Source of the DNA: Croceivirga sp.
Lineage (GTDB): Bacteria > Bacteroidota > Bacteroidia > Flavobacteriales > Flavobacteriaceae
NCBI GenBank assembly: GCA_028284285.1
Contig: JANQSA010000048.1
Location: 62,001-126,000 of the forward strand
Direction: 5' to 3'
DNA: 64,000 bases
Every line of letters starts with the position of its first letter. Positions within the stretch are counted from its first letter, which is position 1. Both the position numbers and the translations under genes were made by a program. Below the pieces are notes generated by a model that saw only the letters and a program-made list of their open reading frames with translations, was not told the DNA's origin and ran no database searches. Shown here one piece after another: positions 17,358-44,827 of the stretch.

Positions 17358-17517
17358 GAACTTTTTTAGACTTTTTCAATTGGCTAAAAAATCGCTCTCT
17401 TTCGCCTGCTTTTTGTCTTTTTTTCCTTCCGTAGCCCTGCTATGCAACTCAAAAAAGCCTTCAATCAGACAAAAAACACCTGATTTTCGCTTCACTCCAA
17501 AAAGTCTAAATGAGTTC
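17358..17517. repeat. Dispersed inverted-repeat element, copy A (160 bp)
   Basis: Bounded by 19-bp inverted ends related to GAACTCATTTAGACTTTTT (17358-17376 and 17499-17517; 17 of 19 match). The interior aligns over its whole length, in opposite orientation, with copy B at 44568-44827, including the subterminal CAATTGGCTAAAA. The apparent 61-aa frame through it is not a gene. This is the compact version; copy B carries extra GC palindromes. Confidence 0.82.
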
Positions 17518-17576
17518 ATTGATTCAGGGTAAAGACGCCAGCCTCCTCTATGATTGGACAACTTTCCTAAAAATAT

Positions 17577-31562: not shown

Positions 31563-31657
31563 TCGAGAACCTCAGCCACCGTCGAGAGCCTCAGCCACCG
31601 TCGAGAACCTCAGCCACCATCGAGAACCTCAGCCACCTTCGAGAGCCCCGGCCACCT
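31563..31657. repeat. 19-bp tandem repeat, five units
   Basis: The unit is TCGAGAACCTCAGCCACCG with small variations; five head-to-tail copies occupy 95 bp. Two more copies lie at 32976-33013. There are no spacers between units, so it is not a CRISPR array. Each unit can pair with inverted copies nearby. Confidence 0.9.
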
Positions 31658-31812
31658 AGCAATATCCCTTTAATAGGGTTAGGGTCGCTGAGGTGACTGC
31701 TGAGGGTCTCGAAGTACTCGACGGTCATTGAGGTACTCGAAATGACCATTACAAGAGAGAAGTCATTATTTTAACCCCAATTCTAAACTTTCATTTCTTT
31801 TGTTCACTAACC

Positions 31813-32975: not shown

Positions 32976-33013
32976 TCGAGAACCTCAGCCACCATCGAGA
33001 ACCTCAGCCACCA
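32976..33013. repeat. 19-bp repeat, two further units
   Basis: Two tandem copies of TCGAGAACCTCAGCCACCA, the same unit as at 31563-31657, now on the other side of the secreted protein gene. The gene is thus bracketed by the same repeat. Confidence 0.85.
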
Positions 33014-33091
33014 CGGAAAGTTTTTTCAATCTGGTCACCGAGACGGTGGTTGAGGCCCTCGAAACCACCGCCAAAAATTTATTCGAAGAAG

Positions 33092-33262
33092 TGTTGCCTG
33101 AGGTAATATGCTGAGCTGGTCGAAGTACTTTCGAAGGCAGCACTGGGAATAAATCCCCTTGCGCCAAAACCCCAACTTTTTTATAGGAAAACCACAAATG
33201 TTAATGGTGATTTTTTATTATGATAACCAATGGTTATTTTGGAGTATTATTTTCTCCCCCAC
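33092..33262 (+). repeat. Direct repeat L, before the defence cassette
   Basis: About 170 bp that aligns with 35454-35633 in the same orientation. Shared blocks include AAGTACTTTCGAAGGCA, CACTGGGAATAAATCCCCTT, CCAAAACCCCAA and TTATTTTGGAG. It lies 62 bp before the first cassette gene. The TTATTTTGG block near its end is a near -7 box, so the repeat may bring a promoter. Confidence 0.8.
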
Positions 33263-33324
33263 AAACTAAAATACTGAATACACCGTATGCGGTGCCTGTA
33301 CCAGGCTAAATAATAGACTTTACA

Positions 33325-33825
33325 ATGAATGAGCGTAAACAAAAGGAAAATCCTTGGGTGTCAGGAGTAATTAAAGGTAGGATTGCCGAGACCATTGTTG
33401 AACAGCTTTTTATTTCATTAGACTTTCAGGTTTTTAAGTATGGAATGGAAAATTCTATTCCAGGAATTACCGATTTGTTAAAAGGTGTTCGTGGTGATGT
33501 AGCGAAAAACATCCGGCAAATGCCTGATTTTGTTGTGTTCAAAAATGGCGAGGCTTATTTCATAGAAGTGAAGTTTCGAAAAAATGGATGCTTGTCGCTT
33601 AAAGAGATTGAGAAATATGGCGAATATCCATTTGAAAATGCCTTGTTTGTTTTGCTTTCTCCAAAACATATCAAATGCATTTCATACAAAGAGTTAAAAG
33701 AGGGCAAGGAAATACATGAAAAATGCAGAAATTGGTTGGGCAGCCGGAAAGAATTTGAAACCGATAAAGAGACGATTAAAAAGTACTGCAAATATGCCAT
33801 CAAGTTTTTTGAAAATGTAGAGTAA
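33325..33825 (+). CDS. PD-(D/E)XK nuclease-like protein (defence cassette gene 1)
   Basis: A 166-aa protein. The motif layout of a PD-(D/E)XK nuclease core is visible: Glu22 in the first helix (GRIAETIVEQLF), Pro67-Asp68 in MPDFVVF and Glu81-Val-Lys83 in YFIEVKFR. No separate DNA-binding domain is seen, so it is a minimal nuclease fold, like many restriction or repair accessory proteins. I do not recognise a named family. It starts a tight three-gene run: the next ATG follows its stop directly. Base composition is AT-richer than the flanking core genes, suggesting acquisition by transfer. Probably cytoplasmic. Confidence 0.75.
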   Translation: MNERKQKENPWVSGVIKGRIAETIVEQLFISLDFQVFKYGMENSIPGITDLLKGVRGDVAKNIRQMPDFVVFKNGEAYFIEVKFRKNGCLSLKEIEKYGEYPFENALFVLLSPKHIKCISYKELKEGKEIHEKCRNWLGSRKEFETDKETIKKYCKYAIKFFENVE

Positions 33826-34473
33826 ATGACCAAAACAGAACAACTTGATCAACTTTTTGAGGAGTGGCTGAATGATATGCCTGATTACCAGGGATTCAAA
33901 AAGGACGGAATAAATAATGAAACACTTTTTGAAAAGGCCAAAAGAAGAATTCTTTTCATTACCAAAGAACCAAACGACCCAAAACAAAAAGAAGGAGACT
34001 ATAGAAATTGGTGGAAAAAGGGTCTTAAATACACTTTTTCGCATCGAATAGCGGAATGGAGTTATGGAATATTAAATGATTTTCCTCCTATCGAGCAAAT
34101 TCAAAAGGATAAAGAAGGTTATAAAAATGTTATTTTCCAGATAGCATTTATGAATGTCAAGAAAAGTGGAGGTGGGGGTAACTCAAAATATGAAATCATC
34201 GAAGAACATCTTATAAAAAATAAACAAAATCTGATTAAGCAGATTGAAATAATCAATCCAGAAATTATTATTCTGGGCCTGACATGGAAGCGTATCAGAA
34301 ACATGCTTTTTGATACCGTTCAATGGAAATCTAGCGGTTATCATATTCCAATAGGAAAGTTCAACAATGCGAAAGTTATTGATTTCTATCACCCCTCTGC
34401 ACGCAATGCCGCTGCGGCATCGTATAGTTTATTGGAAAATGTAGTCACATCAAAATCCTTTCAAGAATTGTAA
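33826..34473 (+). CDS. Uracil-DNA-glycosylase-fold protein (defence cassette gene 2)
   Basis: A 215-aa protein whose motif order matches the uracil-DNA glycosylase superfamily (PF03167-like). There is a strand plus active-site loop ILFITKEPND (43-51, where family 4/5 has GEAPG), then FMNVKK (108-113, compare NVVKCRP), then INPEIIILGLTWKRI (143-157, compare PKVIVLLG..A) and a C-terminal HPS (189-191, in FYHPSARN), the family's motif-2 histidine position. The Cys ligands of the Fe-S families are absent. Possible activity: removal of uracil or a modified base from DNA. Its position between a nuclease-like and an Mrr-like gene suggests action on foreign DNA. Fold call moderately sure; substrate unknown. 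Confidence 0.62.
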   Translation: MTKTEQLDQLFEEWLNDMPDYQGFKKDGINNETLFEKAKRRILFITKEPNDPKQKEGDYRNWWKKGLKYTFSHRIAEWSYGILNDFPPIEQIQKDKEGYKNVIFQIAFMNVKKSGGGGNSKYEIIEEHLIKNKQNLIKQIEIINPEIIILGLTWKRIRNMLFDTVQWKSSGYHIPIGKFNNAKVIDFYHPSARNAAAASYSLLENVVTSKSFQEL

Positions 34474-34482
34474 AATAATCCA

Positions 34483-35382
34483 ATGAAAAAACCATCTAAA
34501 TCCAAATTAATTGCGCAAAAGACCATTTACGCCACATTTAAAATATTGAAAGAAAACGGCGGTCAGATGAGAGGGAAAGAAGTCGTGGATAAAATTCGAG
34601 ACACCTTAACCTTCAACGACTATGAAAAGCATCGATTTGAAAAGACGGGATATATACGTTGGGAAAGCATATTACATTTCTTCACCATTGATTGTATGAA
34701 GGCAGGTTATTTACGCAAACAAAAAGGAATATGGCACCTAACTGATGAGGGAGAGGAGGCCTATACACTGGGACCCGTGAAATTACTGGAAACAGCTACA
34801 AAAAAGTACAGAGAGTGGGATGCTAAAAACAAACTGAAAAAAGATGATTTAGACATTGATGATGACCAAGATGACCAATCACAAAAACAAGAGGCCTTAT
34901 TGGAACAATACGAAACCTCGGCCTTAGATGGAATTCGTGAGTTTTTAATTCAGAAGAATCCTTACGAATTTCAAGATATGGTCGCGGTATTATTAAAGGC
35001 TATGGGTTATCATATTGCCTTAGTATCGCCAAAAGGCAGGGATGGTGGAATTGACGTAATTGCCTATACCGATCCTTTGGGTGTTAATTCTCCTAGAATT
35101 ATAGCGCAGGTTAAACATAAACCAGATACTAAAATATCTCCTGACGACATACAGCGCCTTTCCGGTACTATGAAACGATCTAGCGATGTTGGCATATTTG
35201 TAACTTCTGGTGGATTTACTCCATACGCTCAAAATGAAGCCCGTATGGCGGATAAACACATTGAATTGATCCATTTTGAACGTTTCGTAGAATTATGGCA
35301 AGAATACTATCCCAATATGACTGACGAAGACAAGAACATGTTGCCCTTACACCCTATTTATTTTTTGGGCAGCAATGAATAA
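34483..35382 (+). CDS. Mrr-family restriction endonuclease (defence cassette gene 3)
   Basis: A 299-aa type IV-like restriction enzyme. The N-terminal winged-helix domain (about 8-95, ending GIWHLTDEGEEAY) resembles Mrr_N. An acidic linker follows (DDLDIDDDQDDQ, 121-132). The C-terminal Mrr catalytic domain (about 155-275) carries FQDMVAVLLKAMGY, GRDGGIDVIAY with Asp191, and the catalytic QxK in AQVKH (209-213). Mrr enzymes cut DNA carrying modified bases. Nine bases separate it from the glycosylase-fold gene, so the three cassette genes form one operon. A repeat-truncated small frame follows before hsdM. Confidence 0.88.
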   Translation: MKKPSKSKLIAQKTIYATFKILKENGGQMRGKEVVDKIRDTLTFNDYEKHRFEKTGYIRWESILHFFTIDCMKAGYLRKQKGIWHLTDEGEEAYTLGPVKLLETATKKYREWDAKNKLKKDDLDIDDDQDDQSQKQEALLEQYETSALDGIREFLIQKNPYEFQDMVAVLLKAMGYHIALVSPKGRDGGIDVIAYTDPLGVNSPRIIAQVKHKPDTKISPDDIQRLSGTMKRSSDVGIFVTSGGFTPYAQNEARMADKHIELIHFERFVELWQEYYPNMTDEDKNMLPLHPIYFLGSNE

Positions 35383-35398
35383 TAATTTAAAACATCTT

Positions 35399-35476
35399 AT
35401 GGACAGAACAAGTCTGACTTCGGAACAAGAAAAACTTAACGCTTTAAAACAAATGTTGTCTGGGGTGATATACTGA
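35399..35476 (+). pseudogene. Possible truncated gene start after mrr
   Basis: An ATG frame of 25 codons, MDRTSLTSEQEKLNALKQML then SGVIY and stop. It looks like a genuine N-terminus (charged, helical) that runs straight into direct repeat R at about 35454, where the frame is closed. It may be the remnant of a fourth cassette gene cut off by the repeat, or chance. Confidence 0.3.
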
Positions 35477-35633
35477 GCCGGCCAAAGTACTTTCGAAGGC
35501 AACACTGGGAATAAATCCCCTTCCACCAAAACCCCAAGATTTTTATAGGAAACCCCTAAATACCATTTGTTATTTTTTATTCCGGTTTCCAATAGTTATT
35601 TTGGAGCTACCATTAACTCCCCCATTTTTTAAT
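35454..35633 (+). repeat. Direct repeat R, before hsdM
   Basis: About 180 bp aligned with 33092-33262 in the same orientation, roughly three quarters identical by eye with a few small indels. It ends 13 bp before the hsdM ATG, so it contains the hsdM upstream region including the TTATTTTGGAG block. The pair L/R brackets the cassette. Confidence 0.8.
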
Positions 35634-35646
35634 GATATCATAAGGA

Positions 35647-37125
35647 ATGAGTTTCGAACAAACCTTTAAGAATATTGATGATGTGCTTTGGAAAGATGCC
35701 GGAGCAGACAGCGAGCTAGATTATATTGGCCAGACCTCATGGATTCTGTTTTTACGATACTTGGATGATTTTGAAAAGGAAAAGGCTGATGAGGCGGGTT
35801 TGAAAGGAGAGGACTACCAATTCATTTTAGCTGAAGAATACCGATGGCCCAATTGGGCAATGCCCAAAGGAGCTGACGGCAAATTGGACCACCACAAAGC
35901 CATGACAGGACCTGACTTAGTTCAGTTCGTGGACAACAGGTTGTTTCCATATTTGGCCAAATTCAAACAAAAAGCTGACAATCCAAAAACCATTGAATAC
36001 AAGATTGGAGAAATCTTCTCTGAACTAAAAAACAAAATACAAAGCGGGTATAACTTACGTGAAATAATTGAACATGTGGATGAACTTCAGTTTCGTTCCC
36101 AAAAAGAAAAACACGAACTCAGCCATTTATACGAAACCAAAATCAAGAACATGGGCAATGCCGGTCGGAATGGCGGGCAATACTACACCCCACGACCGTT
36201 GATTCGGGCAATGATTCATATAATAGACCCCCTGGTAGGTGAAAAGATATATGACGGGGCTGCAGGCAGTTGCGGTTTTTTATGCGAAGCATACGAATAC
36301 ATGTACCATCGTATGAATCGCACCACTTATAACCTGAAAACCCTACAGGAGAATACTTTTTACGGTAAGGAGAAAAAAAACCTCGCCTATGTGATTGGCA
36401 TTATGAACATGATTCTTCATGGTATTGAGGCCCCAAACCTTATTCATATCAATACGCTTGGTGAGAACATACGCGACATACAGGAAAAAAACCGTTATCA
36501 TGTGATTTTGGCCAATCCACCATTTGGCGGTAAGGAACGAAAAGAAGTACAGCAAAACTTTGATATCAAAACAGGAGAAACAGCCTCGCTATTTCTCCAG
36601 CACTTTATCAAAAGTTTGAAAACAGGTGGCAGGGCAGCTATTGTGATCAAGAACACCTTTTTAAGCAATGTAGATAACGCTTCAATTTCATTAAGAAAGT
36701 ACTTGTTAGAAAGCTGTAAGCTGCATACCGTTTTAGACTTGCCAGCAGGCACCTTCACAGGTGCAGGAGTTAAGACCGTGGTCTTGTTTTTTACAAAAGG
36801 CGAACCCACGAAAAAGATTTGGTACTACCAATTGGATGCAGGCAGAAGTTTAGGGAAAACCAATCCTTTGAACGATACCGATATGGAAGAGTTTGTGGCT
36901 TTGGCCACTTCGAGAGCTTTAGTGGCCGACAAAGGTCCAGAAACCGAAAAATCCTGGAATATTGAGGTGTCTGAGGTTCACGAAGACACCTTAGATTTGT
37001 CCCCTAAAAACCCCAACACTCCCGAAGAAGCACCATTACGAAGCCCGGAAGAAATTTTAGCAGAAATGCAGACTTTGGATGAAGAGACAAGCTCTATTCT
37101 AAACCAAATTAAAGCGTTGATATGA
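35647..37125 (+). CDS. hsdM: Type I restriction-modification methyltransferase subunit
   Basis: A 492-aa N6-adenine DNA methyltransferase. The N-terminal HsdM_N helical domain (about 5-150) is followed by QYYTPRPLIRAMI (178-190), a SAM motif I of the variant form YDGAAGSCGF (202-211, replacing the common PACGSGGF) and the catalytic NPPFGG (290-295). It modifies host DNA at the site chosen by HsdS and forms the M2S core of the complex. Its stop overlaps the hsdS start by 4 bp (ATGA). The upstream region is the right copy of a direct repeat that also precedes the three-gene cassette. Confidence 0.95.
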   Translation: MSFEQTFKNIDDVLWKDAGADSELDYIGQTSWILFLRYLDDFEKEKADEAGLKGEDYQFILAEEYRWPNWAMPKGADGKLDHHKAMTGPDLVQFVDNRLFPYLAKFKQKADNPKTIEYKIGEIFSELKNKIQSGYNLREIIEHVDELQFRSQKEKHELSHLYETKIKNMGNAGRNGGQYYTPRPLIRAMIHIIDPLVGEKIYDGAAGSCGFLCEAYEYMYHRMNRTTYNLKTLQENTFYGKEKKNLAYVIGIMNMILHGIEAPNLIHINTLGENIRDIQEKNRYHVILANPPFGGKERKEVQQNFDIKTGETASLFLQHFIKSLKTGGRAAIVIKNTFLSNVDNASISLRKYLLESCKLHTVLDLPAGTFTGAGVKTVVLFFTKGEPTKKIWYYQLDAGRSLGKTNPLNDTDMEEFVALATSRALVADKGPETEKSWNIEVSEVHEDTLDLSPKNPNTPEEAPLRSPEEILAEMQTLDEETSSILNQIKALI

Positions 37126-38369
37126 AGAAAGGCGTTGCAATGAGCCTGCCAAAGAGTTGGGGAGTGAAAAAATTGAGTGAAGTCTGTGAACGGTTTATAG
37201 TTCCTCAGAGGGATAAACCAAAAGAATTTAATGGAACTGTTCCTTGGTGTAGAATAGAAGACTTTGATGGAAGATATTTATATAAATCAAAAAGTGATAA
37301 ATGTGTTACTGAAGAATTAATCCAATCAATGCCTCTTCGGGTTTTTCCAGTAAATACTGTAATTGTTTCTTGCTCGGCTGATTTGGGAAGATGTGCGATT
37401 ATCAAAGAGCCTTTAGTTACTAATCAGACTTTTATAGGTCTTGTCCCAAAAGATGAAATATATCCTGAGTATCTATATTATCTAATGGGTTCAATGGCTG
37501 AGTATTTAAATAAAATCGCCACTGGAGCTACAATAAAATATCTTTCGAAAAAAAAGTTTCAAAATTTAGAAGCCCCAATCCCACAACTTTCTGAACAAAA
37601 ACAAATCGTAGCGACACTGGATGAAGCCTTTGCTGCCATAGACAAAGCCCAAGCCAATATTGAAAAAAATATTGAAAACGCGGCAGCCCTGTTTCAATCA
37701 AAACTCAATGAAATTTTTAGCCAAGAAGGTGATGGATGGGAAAAAAAGAATTTGAATGAAATCTGTGAGGTTAAAGATGGCACACATAATTCACCAAAAT
37801 ATGTTGATGAAAAGGATGGGATTCCTTTTGTAACACAAAAAAATATTTTGGATGAAGGTTTGTCATTTGAAAGTGCCAAATTCATTAGTGAAAGCGACCA
37901 TGAAGGTTTTTACAAAAGGTCTAACGTAGCATATCAAGATATACTATTCGCAATGATTGGAGCAAATAGAGGAATGGCGTGTATTGTAGACGATAAACGA
38001 ACTTTTAGCATTAAAAATGTTGGTCTAATAAAATCAAATGAAAATTATAGTCCTAAATATTTACTCTACTATTTGAAAAGTCCATTGGCAAAGAAGTACG
38101 TAGATGAAAATTCAAGTGGAAGTGCTCAAGGATTTATCGGTCTTGGAAAATTAAGAGCTTTCCCAATTCCATATACCGATATTGAAATGCAAAGGAAAAT
38201 TGAAAGCCAAATTGAATCTTTAAATGAATTCATTATTTCTACAGTTTCAGCTTATAATCAAAAACTTACCAATTTGGAAGACCTCAAAAAATCTATTTTA
38301 CAAAAAGCGTTTTCGGGGGAGTTGACTTCGGCAGGCTCAGTCCCTAGACAAAACCCAGTCAGTGTATGA
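37122..38369 (+). CDS. hsdS: Type I restriction-modification specificity subunit
   Basis: A 415-aa DNA-recognition subunit with two target-recognition domains (about 8-155 and 207-365). Each is followed by a conserved helical spacer: LSEQKQIVATLDEAFAAIDK (about 156-200) and the C-terminal EMQRKIESQIESL...LKKSILQKAFSGEL. The two domains define a bipartite target sequence that cannot be predicted here. It overlaps hsdM and hsdR by 4 bp each, so all three subunits are translationally coupled. The last dozen residues after FSGEL come from a sequence resembling the dispersed CTTCGGCAGGCTCAGT repeat, suggesting a repeat inserted at the gene end. No second hsdS or inversion site is seen. Confidence 0.94.
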   Translation: MKKGVAMSLPKSWGVKKLSEVCERFIVPQRDKPKEFNGTVPWCRIEDFDGRYLYKSKSDKCVTEELIQSMPLRVFPVNTVIVSCSADLGRCAIIKEPLVTNQTFIGLVPKDEIYPEYLYYLMGSMAEYLNKIATGATIKYLSKKKFQNLEAPIPQLSEQKQIVATLDEAFAAIDKAQANIEKNIENAAALFQSKLNEIFSQEGDGWEKKNLNEICEVKDGTHNSPKYVDEKDGIPFVTQKNILDEGLSFESAKFISESDHEGFYKRSNVAYQDILFAMIGANRGMACIVDDKRTFSIKNVGLIKSNENYSPKYLLYYLKSPLAKKYVDENSSGSAQGFIGLGKLRAFPIPYTDIEMQRKIESQIESLNEFIISTVSAYNQKLTNLEDLKKSILQKAFSGELTSAGSVPRQNPVSV

Positions 38370-40705
38370 ACGAAGCACAAACCAAACACGACTTCATAGA
38401 ACCTGCTTTACGTAAGGCAGGTTGGGGTATTGTTGAAGGCAGTCGTTTGCGTTTGGAATTTCCGATTACTAAAGGGCGTCTTATTGGTCAAAACAGGCGT
38501 GCAAAACCTTTGTTTGCAGATTACGTATTAGAATACAAGAACAGACGTATTGGTATTATAGAAGCCAAAAAAAGAGATGAGTATTACACACAAGGTTTAG
38601 GACAAGCTAAAGATTATGCGGAGCGTTTAAACATTCGTTTTACGTATTGTACTAATGGTTTGCAGATTTATGGCGTGGACATGCAAGAGGGTACGGAAGG
38701 GGATGTATCCAAATATCCAACACCAGATGAGCTTTGGGAAATGACGTATCCCACACCCAGAGAAGACTATAAAATTGAAATTGCCAATTGGGCAGCACGC
38801 TTTTTTGCTATTCCTTTTGAAGACAGAGGAGGAACCTGGCAAGCCAGATACTACCAACAGAATGCAATTGCAAAAGTGTTGGAAGCTGTCGCAGAGAAAA
38901 AAGATAGAATTCTTCTCACCTTAGCTACAGGTACAGGAAAAACGGCCATAGCGTTTCAAATTGCCTGGAAACTGTTTCATGCCAAATGGAATTTAAGAAG
39001 AGATGGGAGTAGAAGTCCACGAATTTTGTTTTTGGCAGACCGAAATATTTTAGCAGATCAGGCATTCAACTCTTTTAATGCATTTGAAGAAGATGCCTTG
39101 GTTCGGATTCGACCTTCAGAGATCAAAAAGAAAGGACGAATCCCTAAAAACGGAAGTATCTTTTTTACCATTTTCCAAACCTTTATGAGCGGACCAAATG
39201 ATTCGCCATACTTTGGAGAATACCCAGCGGATTTCTTCGATTTCATAATCATTGATGAATGTCATAGAGGTGGTGCAAATGATGAAAGTTCCTGGCGTGC
39301 CATTATGGACTATTTTTCGCCTGCTGTTCAATTAGGTTTAACCGCTACCCCAAAACGAGATGTGAATGGTGACACCTACAAATACTTTGGCGACCCCATT
39401 TATACGTACGCCTTAAAAGACGGAATCAATGACGGTTTCTTAACGCCCTTCAAAGTCAAAGAAATTGACACCACCATTGACGAATACACCTATACCTCGG
39501 ACGATGAGGTTGAGGGCCTAATTGAAGAAGGAAGAGAGTACACAGAAGCCGATTTTAATAGAATCATTGAAATTAAAGCGAGAGAAGAATACCGGGTTAA
39601 ACTTTTCATGGATTTGATAAACCAAAATCAGAAAACCCTGGTTTTCTGCGCTACTCAAATTCATGCAGCGGCCGTTAGAGATTTAATCAATCAATACGCG
39701 ACGAGTAGAAATACAAACTACTGCCATAGAGTTACCGCAGATGACGGAAAAATTGGGGAGCAACATTTACGAGATTTTCAAGACAATGAAAAGAGCATCC
39801 CAACAATTCTAACCACTTCACAGAAATTAAGTACTGGAGTTGATGCACCTGAAATCAGAAACATTGTTTTAATGCGTCCTGTTAACTCGATGGTAGAATT
39901 CAAACAAATAGTGGGTAGAGGAACCCGCCTTTTTGATGGTAAAGACTATTTCACAATTTTCGACTTTGTTGATGCTCATAATCACTTTCAAGACCCTGAA
40001 TGGGATGGTGAACCATTGGAACCATTGCCGCCAAGACCGTATCCTACTGGTGGAAATGAACCCGATGGGTTTGACGAGCCCGACCCTCCACCGTTCCCCG
40101 ATGATGAGACGCCAACCAGGCAAATGATTAAAGTGACGTTATCTGATAATAAGGTGCGTGAAATAGACTCAATGGTCAAAACTTCTTTTTGGAGTCCATC
40201 AGGGAAACCCATTTCTTCACAGGAATTCATTGCGCAACTATTTGGGGATCTACCTGAATTCTTTGTGAGTGAAAGTGAGCTTCGTAAGATTTGGAGTTTA
40301 CCAAGTACCAGAAAAAAGTTGCTAACCGAATTAAGCGAAAAAGGATATACGAATACGCAATTAGAAGATTTGAGAAAATTAATACATGGGGAAGACAGTG
40401 ATCTTTTTGATGTGTTGAGTTACGTAGCATATCACAAAGACCTTGTGCCGAGATTGGAGCGGGCAAGTAGAGCAAAAATTCAATTGAACGACTATAACCA
40501 AAAGCAACAGGATTTCTTGAATTTTGTTTTGGAGCAGTATGTAAAAGAAGGAGTTAACGAATTGGACGATTCTAAACTTCCTGACTTGTTGGAGTTGAAA
40601 TACAAAGCAATAGCAGACGCAAAACGCGAATTAGGAGATATAAAATCAATCAGAAATACCTTTATCGGATTTCAGGAACGTTTATATCAAGAAAAAGCGG
40701 GTTAG
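38366..40705 (+). CDS. hsdR: Type I restriction-modification restriction subunit (helicase-nuclease)
   Basis: A 779-aa translocase and endonuclease subunit. The N-terminal nuclease domain has Asp52 (FADYVLEY) and the Glu66-Ala-Lys68 motif in IIEAKKRDE. Superfamily 2 helicase motifs follow: Walker A ATGTGKT (187-193), DECH box (297-300, IIIDECHRGG), LTATPKR and motif VI QIVGRGTRLF. The C-terminal region is of the EcoEI_R type, with an acidic Pro-rich linker (PEPDGFDEPDPPPFPDDE-like, about 560-585). All catalytic motifs look intact, so the system is probably functional. It starts with a 4-bp overlap with hsdS and ends the defence island. Confidence 0.95.
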   Translation: MNEAQTKHDFIEPALRKAGWGIVEGSRLRLEFPITKGRLIGQNRRAKPLFADYVLEYKNRRIGIIEAKKRDEYYTQGLGQAKDYAERLNIRFTYCTNGLQIYGVDMQEGTEGDVSKYPTPDELWEMTYPTPREDYKIEIANWAARFFAIPFEDRGGTWQARYYQQNAIAKVLEAVAEKKDRILLTLATGTGKTAIAFQIAWKLFHAKWNLRRDGSRSPRILFLADRNILADQAFNSFNAFEEDALVRIRPSEIKKKGRIPKNGSIFFTIFQTFMSGPNDSPYFGEYPADFFDFIIIDECHRGGANDESSWRAIMDYFSPAVQLGLTATPKRDVNGDTYKYFGDPIYTYALKDGINDGFLTPFKVKEIDTTIDEYTYTSDDEVEGLIEEGREYTEADFNRIIEIKAREEYRVKLFMDLINQNQKTLVFCATQIHAAAVRDLINQYATSRNTNYCHRVTADDGKIGEQHLRDFQDNEKSIPTILTTSQKLSTGVDAPEIRNIVLMRPVNSMVEFKQIVGRGTRLFDGKDYFTIFDFVDAHNHFQDPEWDGEPLEPLPPRPYPTGGNEPDGFDEPDPPPFPDDETPTRQMIKVTLSDNKVREIDSMVKTSFWSPSGKPISSQEFIAQLFGDLPEFFVSESELRKIWSLPSTRKKLLTELSEKGYTNTQLEDLRKLIHGEDSDLFDVLSYVAYHKDLVPRLERASRAKIQLNDYNQKQQDFLNFVLEQYVKEGVNELDDSKLPDLLELKYKAIADAKRELGDIKSIRNTFIGFQERLYQEKAG

Positions 40706-40789: not shown

Positions 40790-41248
40790 ATGATAAAAAC
40801 AATATTTCCTCTAATACTACTCCTTCTTGTGAGCTGTCAGATCAAAACTTCTGAGCCTCCACAAAATGAAGTAGAACTCACCAAAACCTATATCGACCCC
40901 GCCCAAGGCTATTCTCAAGCGGTAGCGGTGGAAGTCCATGGCGTAAAAACCATTTATATTTCCGGGCAAGTAGGCAGTGGCGCGAATTTTGAAGCCCAGT
41001 TTAAAGACGCCCTAAACAAATTGTTTAAGACCCTGGAAGCCTCCGGGGCTACCTTTAATGACGTGGTGAAGTACAACACTTATATTGTGAACTATCAACC
41101 GGCCTATCTGGATACTTTCCGAAGGGTACGAAAGGAGCTTTTGGGCGATACCGACATGCCTGCCAGTACCCTGGTAGGAGTTCAGGCGCTGGGATTACCG
41201 GAATGGGGTGTAGAAATTGAGGCCACTGCCGTTGTGAAGATGGAATAA
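40790..41248 (+). CDS. Rid (YjgF) family lipoprotein lacking the catalytic Arg
   Basis: A 152-aa protein with a lipoprotein signal (MIKTIFPLILLLLVSC, Cys16), followed by a Rid-domain: IYISGQVG, GATFNDVVKYNTYIVNYQP and GVEIEATAVV. Classical RidA hydrolyses reactive enamine/imine intermediates using an Arg in PARST; here the aligned segment is MPASTLVGV, with Ser in place of that Arg. The Glu region (VEIEA) is kept. Canonical imine deaminase activity is therefore doubtful. The lipid anchor places it at the envelope rather than the cytoplasm. It stands first in a run of plus-strand genes after the defence island. Confidence 0.85.
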   Translation: MIKTIFPLILLLLVSCQIKTSEPPQNEVELTKTYIDPAQGYSQAVAVEVHGVKTIYISGQVGSGANFEAQFKDALNKLFKTLEASGATFNDVVKYNTYIVNYQPAYLDTFRRVRKELLGDTDMPASTLVGVQALGLPEWGVEIEATAVVKME

Positions 41249-44287: not shown

Positions 44288-44567
44288 TTCCTAACAATCT
44301 TAGGCAAAAGTACGTCTCCCAACGAAACCAGAACCAGTGAACACGAAACGAATAATTTCCAGGTAGTACAAATGTATGGTGAGGGAATAGCTATTACCCA
44401 AAAGAAGGTGTTCTCTTAAGATGTCCTTTCACAGCGCTTACACCTCTCTTTTTCGGAGGCGCTTTTAGCTTTCCTGATCTGAGTAAGGTCCAAAACAACA
44501 GGGATAATAGCATGATTTTCTTTTTAGTTAAAGATACGATATTTTGTACAGCTTTTTTTGACTTTAA
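44288..44567. other. Intergenic region upstream of DUF2237
   Basis: About 280 bp that, with copy B of the inverted-repeat element, makes a 590-bp gap. It holds the DUF2237 promoter. A loose GC-rich hairpin lies near 44435-44470. No gene is seen. Confidence 0.5.
44305..44312 (-). promoter_or_regulatory. -7 box (TACTTTTG) for the DUF2237 gene
   Basis: A perfect TAnnTTTG match 17 bp before the ATG; no clear -33 element. Confidence 0.45.
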
Positions 44568-44827
44568 GAACTCATTTGGACTTTTTGGATTGAAGCGAAA
44601 ATCAGATGTTTTTTGTCCGATTGAAGGCTTTTTTGAGTTGCACCCGCCTGCCGAGCGGGCAGGTAGCAGGGCTACGGAAGGAAAAAAAGACAGTGCCGAA
44701 GGAAAAAGCCAATTATTTGGCTTTTGGATGAGGAGCCAGCTGGCGCGCTGTGTGAAAAAGAGCGATTTCTGCCTGCTTGCCTCGAGGCAGGCAGGTTTTA
44801 GCCAATTGAAAAAGTCTAAATGAGTTC
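44568..44827. repeat. Dispersed inverted-repeat element, copy B (260 bp)
   Basis: The 19-bp ends (44568-44586 and 44809-44827; 18 of 19 match) are the same as in copy A (17358-17517), and the interior aligns with copy A in reverse orientation. Relative to A, copy B has about 100 bp extra, including two GC-rich palindromes (about 44643-44664 and 44769-44792) and a segment with GCCAATTATTTGGC. The long frame across it is not a gene. Confidence 0.82.

Follow-up and report, generated by a model that had tools for sequence, protein, structure and literature searches.

The defence region described here lies in a stretch of 64,000 nucleotides (nt) from Croceivirga sp. (assembly GCA_028284285.1, contig JANQSA010000048.1, positions 62,001 to 126,000), to which we refer as the window. 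It is a chromosomal hotspot holding two tandem operons on the plus strand, each preceded by a copy of a 73-nt sequence that we call the header. The open reading frames (ORFs) of the first operon encode P1, an Hjc-like PD-(D/E)XK nuclease that lacks the zinc ribbon of most of its relatives (33325-33825; ORF, alignment and predicted fold), P2, a cysteine-free protein assigned to a divergent branch of the uracil-DNA glycosylase (UDG) superfamily (33826-34473; ORF, profile and predicted structure), and P3, an Mrr-type enzyme (34483-35382; domain matches). The second operon consists of the type I restriction-modification (R-M) genes hsdM, for the methyltransferase subunit (35647-37125), hsdS, for the specificity subunit with two Methylase_S stretches (37122-38369), and hsdR, of the EcoAI/FtnUII family (38366-40705), and the region stands before a RidA-like gene at 40790-41248. 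A first-pass annotation had placed P1, P2 and P3, with gaps of 0 and 9 nt, ahead of hsdM-hsdS-hsdR in an island richer in AT than its surroundings, and the analysis agrees with it on both points: the G+C fraction is 0.351 in P1, 0.343 in P2, 0.384 in P3 and 0.392 in hsdMSR, whereas the two flanks have 0.476 and 0.465. A tRNA-associated island was considered and rejected, as ARAGORN gave no tRNA in the window.

The two headers (33170-33242 and 35532-35604, plus strand) are part of a direct repeat of 159 nt with 82% identity (33086-33244, upstream of P1, and 35448-35606, upstream of hsdM), which has only these two copies in its own genome. Each copy joins a piece of hotspot flank to the header, and the copies agree at 72 of 84 nt in the upstream part, at 56 of 73 in the header and at 25 of 80 nt downstream. 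This upstream part belongs to the hotspot and recurs in genome G737, whose similarity to the window spans 33003-33246. DNA search of the genus and of the fetched regions finds the header core before other operons as well. In an alignment of six copies, 47 of 172 columns are invariant and the spacing is gapless while the flanks diverge; in the five copies first seen, the distance from CCCCA to TTATTTTGG is exactly 64 nt. A weight matrix built from these six copies gives them 88-97 bits, the next best site reaching -2 bits in the scanned loci and -11 in the window. The 73-nt pattern, with up to 3 mismatches allowed, occurs in 2 of 249 genomes of the family (G000 and G867) and in 4 of 11 of the genus; the reversed-pattern control gave 0. 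A sequence-only model of the six copies, run on 198 relatives, recovers five of them (G867 lies outside that set) and leads to two held-out, more divergent copies, in G730 (E 8.8e-10, 40.3 bits) and G733 (E 2.1e-5, 26.8 bits), both ahead of type I R-M operons. The confident copies are thereby 8 in 7 genomes, including 6 of the 11 genomes of the genus, and the seventh genome, G867, belongs to another genus. No viral contig contains the exact header pattern.

What follows the header varies widely. Operons with recognised restriction or methyltransferase genes stand behind six of the eight copies, namely the window trio (through its Mrr gene), hsdMSR, and the operons of G734, G739, G730 and G733. 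At the same chromosomal site as in the window, the header of G734 is followed by genes for a DUF4357 protein, a small protein resembling helix-turn-helix proteins and two methyltransferases, and that of G737 by genes for a MazG-like protein and a 727-residue protein with GIY-YIG, SLFN-g3 helicase and peptidase S24-like domains (L066, 964-3147). The site was identified by both flanks in G734 and by the right flank in G737, whose contig starts just ahead of the header. In G739 the header lies at a different site, before P1, which is followed by type III-like R-M genes (N6_N4_Mtase and ResIII; 6 nt apart); it is directly ahead of P1 in the window, G739 and G867. The hotspot of G738 contains no recognised defence gene. 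Flanking genes differ among the hotspot, G739, G867 and G733, and the settings are counted as at least four because G730 shares a flank gene with the hotspot. Tandem 19-nt units (TCGAGAACCTCAGCCACC-like) adjoin the hotspot at 31563-31679 and 32976-33035; stretches of 24-26 nt identical to them occur in G730 and G733, so that they are perhaps a dispersed repeat of the genus. An inverted repeat pair of 84 nt, 90% complementary, lies further out, its arms (17443-17526 and 44559-44642) being 27 kb apart.

Such a distribution might be expected of ordinary defence-island clutter, with the headers marking descent from a single R-M locus whose downstream genes were swapped, and carrying no regulatory meaning. 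In that sense, six of the seven header genomes fall in one genus, four of them (the window's, G734, G737 and perhaps G730) may share one hotspot, and the window copies have 84 nt of hotspot flank in common. However, the header is kept with exact spacing in two genera and in four settings or more while its flanks diverge, which suggests selection on the header itself, and we give this explanation little credit.

The placement of the header would suit a role at the start of transcription. The ATG follows it by 42 nt in hsdM, by 43 nt in G737 and by 40 nt in G867, and both its position and these distances fit a promoter with an upstream operator, although they do not prove it. A signal read in the transcript has also been weighed, of the JUMPstart/ops kind, on which a dedicated antitermination factor would act in long defence operons. 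It shares with the header a place just upstream of the starts of unrelated operons, but no RNA fold or base pairing is conserved in the header, and its AT-rich blocks, spaced without gaps, are more suggestive of an element bound as DNA, so that we regard a transcript-level signal as quite improbable. A structured RNA leader was rejected, there being no Rfam match at the two window headers and no conserved fold, and a single-stranded DNA entry promoter was dropped because no fold is conserved. On balance, we incline to the reading that the hotspot carries two tandem defence operons and that the 73-nt header is a DNA-level promoter/operator common to unrelated defence operons, as judged from sequence comparison.

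Several observations weigh against this reading. The distance from header to start is not fixed: P1 begins at 82 nt in the window and at 85 nt in G739; hsdM of G730 begins 251 nt after the header, with a 31-codon ORF at 51 nt; and the starts of G734 and G733, at 35 and 36 nt, are mechanically called TTG codons. Promoters of Bacteroidota have the -7 consensus TAnnTTTG, from which the final TTATTTTGG of the header departs, and no clear -33 box is seen in the header. The cargo behind the remaining two headers is P1 alone in G867 and a merely defence-like MazG/SLFN-helicase pair in G737, and P1 stands without a header in G158, G033, G383 and G253, according to the weight-matrix scan of these loci. 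The copies are not fully independent of each other, since seven of the eight belong to one genus; besides, a Gfo/Idh-type gene that flanks the hotspot recurs in G730, some 6 kb from the header there, so that this header may occupy the same site. Finally, the six-copy model gives 17 non-training matches at E<=0.001. Around the 15 weaker ones, all at or below 24.9 bits, tblastn with eight R-M queries detects no such gene at a distance of up to 1.5 kb, and 12 of these 15 overlap an ORF. They are taken as chance matches for these two reasons, a call made without an independent threshold fixed beforehand.

The nuclease motif reported for P1 in the first-pass annotation (E22, P67-D68, E81-V82-K83) is present and invariant in all seven aligned sequences, the window's included. 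No Pfam family matches P1 above its curated cut-off, the best being DpnII with 16.2 of 23 bits, and the Hjc family PF01870 gives 12.9 bits, below its gathering score of 21.1. The AlphaFold2 model, with a predicted local distance difference test score (pLDDT) of 78, is nearest to archaeal Hjc resolvases (2eo0, E 7.9e-5), which provide 11 of its 12 structure matches at E<=0.001; it resembles the homing enzyme I-Ssp6803I more weakly. P1 is therefore comparable to the archaeal Holliday-junction resolvase Hjc in predicted fold and in its E..PD..EVK residues, and differs from it in falling under the Pfam cut-off and in the N-terminal zinc ribbon of most P1 relatives. This ribbon is found in five of the six other aligned proteins, being intact in G867, and is absent from the window P1. 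Alignment of the DNA with the P1 genes of G867 and G158, which are longer, locates a likely remnant of its coding region at about 33279-33324 (plus strand), suggesting that this part of the window P1 has probably decayed, which would explain the longer gap between header and P1 in the window.

P1 relatives occur in 5 of 395 genomes of the phylum, counting the window's, with none confirmed in viral contigs and none found in plasmids. Their neighbourhoods differ: P1 comes directly after a type I hsdR in G033, follows an AAA ATPase in G383, and has no obvious defence neighbours in the ORF lists of G158, G253 and G867. In G033 the P1-hsdR region occurs twice (L020 and L021), the hsdR region of the second copy reading as several short ORFs. 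The nuclease raises the question of whether the header could be primarily a recombination or homing signal at which cassettes insert and stack, perhaps cut by P1. Two headers bracket P1-P2-P3 in the window, the element recurs in at least four chromosomal settings, its distance to the start codon varies, and P1 resembles Hjc and, more weakly, a homing enzyme. On the other hand, every copy lies just ahead of the first gene of an operon, with the ATG at a promoter-like 40-43 nt in three of the eight; tblastn detects no P1 at the loci of G734 and G737, and none is seen at those of G730 and G733; the four P1 genomes named above have no header; and the duplicated 84-nt flank speaks for ordinary homologous recombination at the hotspot. 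A homing signal is therefore considered unlikely.

The second gene, P2, had been described as a protein with the motif series of the UDG superfamily, and its KEPN, NVKK, PEIIILG and HPS motifs are all present. All 20 aligned sequences have D27, G28, K113, P145 and H189, and at least 90% of them have K47, E48, Q139 and P190. On its own, P2 matches PF03167 weakly (E 0.0049, 17.4 bits, under the gathering cut-off of 24.3), and nine of the 20 family members do so at E<=0.1. The 20-sequence profile leads to three solved uracil-DNA glycosylases (E 6.4e-6 to 1.2e-5), with the C-terminal part only, where the HP(S) motif aligns with those of 4zbx, 1l9g and 1vk2. Structure prediction bears out the proposed fold: the AlphaFold2 model is confident (pLDDT 93, predicted template modelling score 0.92) and its best matches are UDGs, Foldseek placing 1l9g first (E 3.1e-4), followed by 4zby and UdgX, with template modelling scores of about 0.45-0.5 and one of these solved structures at E<=0.001; a predicted phage UDG is matched as well (E 1.3e-4). 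Members of UDG families 4 and 5 have a motif 1 of the GE(A)PG type and iron-sulphur cysteines. P2 has neither, its motif 1 being KEPN and its cysteines numbering zero, and its sequence profile and predicted structure place it as a divergent branch of the superfamily.

P2 relatives occur in 8 of 395 genomes of the phylum (E<=0.001) and in 13 of 395 of the class (E<=1e-5), the window's being included and the two sets overlapping. The 20 members leave out two further matches, in G359 (E 8.9e-4) and in G581 (E 2.3e-6, without a blastp match to the P2-family queries), and of the Enterococcus records with P2, one of 16 was examined. No phage record has a match at E<=0.01. Three of the 20 relatives lie immediately upstream of hsdM, in G011 (86 nt), G606 (171 nt) and G053 (250 nt), a position that is enriched over control ORFs (1 of 246, p 0.0014; both counts made by hand from ORF lists). 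R-M genes in general, counted up to 6 kb from P2, show no significant enrichment (3 of the 20 loci, 1 of 20 controls, Fisher p 0.30; tblastn with eight R-M queries, the controls lying at round positions of seven of the same genomes). On plasmids, P2 is near HaeIII-type R-M genes in Vibrio alginolyticus and near AlwI-type ones in Enterococcus faecium (L052 and L054; neighbours from annotation alone, outside the counts), and on another Vibrio plasmid a P2-family gene is a single gene in an array of small cassettes (L012, 3838-4482). The remaining relatives have other settings, some standing alone, and the neighbours at several loci were assigned from ORF starts, without family search.

Some of these loci show further features. 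WYL-type regulators adjoin P2-family genes in L029 (confirmed by Pfam) and in L047 and L048 (by sequence resemblance only), and L029 has the gene cluster WYL-P2-hsdM-hsdS-GmrSD. The same contig of G053 (L104, 9154-14221) carries an hsdMSR operon whose HsdM and HsdR are 77-79% identical to those of the window; its hsdM reads as two ORFs, and a GIY-YIG-like gene precedes it.

The known anti-phage glycosylases are the nearest parallel to P2. The first-pass annotation had cited Brig1 as a glycosylase reported to act against phage, and the literature is on its side: defence by a glycosylase of the UDG superfamily is established with Brig1 (PMC11078745), a preprint reports it with Brig3 (PMC13160076), and in PMC13092281 the legend to a figure on predicted systems mentions a UDG domain. 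P2 shares with Brig1 and Brig3 a UDG-superfamily fold near defence genes. The best solved match reported for Brig1 is the Sulfolobus tokodaii UDG (PMC11078745), whereas P2 is closest to the Thermotoga maritima enzyme, with that of S. tokodaii second, and P2 relatives precede R-M genes in some loci and stand alone in others. No paper on a P2-like protein was found among the titles and abstract openings of the open-licence literature. A Brig-like role for P2 is plausible, though unproven, and the family can be regarded as a glycosylase-fold candidate for base-excision defence, found before hsdM in some loci and near type II R-M genes on two plasmids.

The assignment of P3 as an Mrr enzyme is borne out by Mrr_cat (6.2e-23) and Mrr_N (1e-10) matches, by the GGID..QVK residues and by a match to the PADLOC family PDC-S02 (E 1.1e-41). 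It shares both domains with the Mrr type IV enzymes of that family, and is unusual solely by its place in the operon. Relatives at E<=1e-30 occur in 5 of 238 genomes, the window's counted: P3 lies 56 nt ahead of an Eco57I-type methyltransferase gene in G014 and 307 nt downstream of hsdM in G228, and no methyltransferase or hsdM-type neighbours appear in the ORF lists of G196 or of G019, whose locus is close to the end of a contig. The hsdM, hsdS and hsdR genes, annotated earlier as intact, are full-length and contiguous and form a type I R-M system of the EcoAI family, HsdR matching the EcoAI/FtnUII family at 5e-241.

The earlier proposal was that P1, P2 and P3 work together, with P2 creating abasic sites in hypermodified phage DNA and P1 and Mrr cutting there. 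The three genes make up a tight operon, each product has the fold or domains of a nucleic-acid enzyme together with conserved residues, and defence glycosylases exist (PMC11078745, PMC13160076). Elsewhere, however, none of the seven loci with P1, the 20 with P2 and the four with P3 contains a second member of the trio (tblastn in fetched neighbourhoods of 7 to 19 kb); P1 precedes a quite different operon in G739 (L065), and the window P1 has no zinc ribbon. Distant relatives of P1 or P3 could be missed by this search, since tblastn with P2 itself gave nothing at 1e-3 in three P2 loci (L028, L048 and L049), whose membership comes from the profile. Each gene occurs separately elsewhere, some beside R-M genes. 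Conservation therefore lends no support to a glycosylase and nucleases working together at abasic sites, although they might do so in this operon. The earlier interpretation thus keeps its three domain assignments and the UDG fold and loses the single conserved module, and we consider a cooperative trio improbable.

The proteins of the two operons would most likely work side by side, as parallel layers and not as one machine, as far as fold and family indicate their activities. Type I R-M would act on unmethylated DNA and Mrr on modified DNA, with P2 possibly excising a modified base in the manner of Brig enzymes and P1 serving as a branched-DNA or accessory nuclease. The simplest history of the window would be the recombination of two hotspot alleles, which would have stacked two cassettes, and homologous recombination in the header and its hotspot flank may be the means by which cassettes are exchanged and stacked in general.

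If the header contains a promoter, as its position suggests, one regulator might act on all of its copies. The model that we advance, tentatively and as a possibility short of an expectation, proposes that the unrelated R-M and other defence operons of the genus belong to a single regulon, in which a dedicated trans-acting factor would read the header and switch on the cassettes behind it, and header homology would permit their exchange and stacking. The arrangement expected of a regulon, one element before several operons of related function, is found in the 8 copies of the 7 genomes. The header would be a handle on a shared circuit through which bacteria might control a shifting repertoire of potentially toxic defence genes; newly acquired defence genes would, if the regulon is real, plug into a standing control circuit. 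The header is also usable as a sequence tag for defence operons, its model having led to two R-M operons outside the training copies.

No description of the header was found in the open-licence literature, as covered by titles and abstract openings, and two known systems offer the nearest comparison. In plasmids of the pLS20 family, the upstream sequences EGeRS1 and EGeRS2 define a regulon of variable operons (PMC8708921). Like the header, each is one conserved sequence ahead of several variable restriction-related operons. These operons carry anti-restriction (establishment) genes of plasmids in Bacillus, whereas the header precedes defence operons in Bacteroidota; EGeRS1 extends over 400-600 bp with inverted repeats, against the 73 nt of the header; and EGeRS2 has a known ribbon-helix-helix repressor, while a regulator of the header is hypothetical. 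The second system is RptR (PMC12255303), which acts at TAGCTA sites to control islands of type I R-M genes; it resembles the header in that the promoter of an R-M defence island contains a DNA element. In the interval reaching from 100 nt ahead of the header start to 176 nt beyond it, TAGCTA is absent from all eight copies. Compared in this way, the header shares with both systems its position ahead of restriction-related operons, and is distinct from them in sequence, host and cargo.

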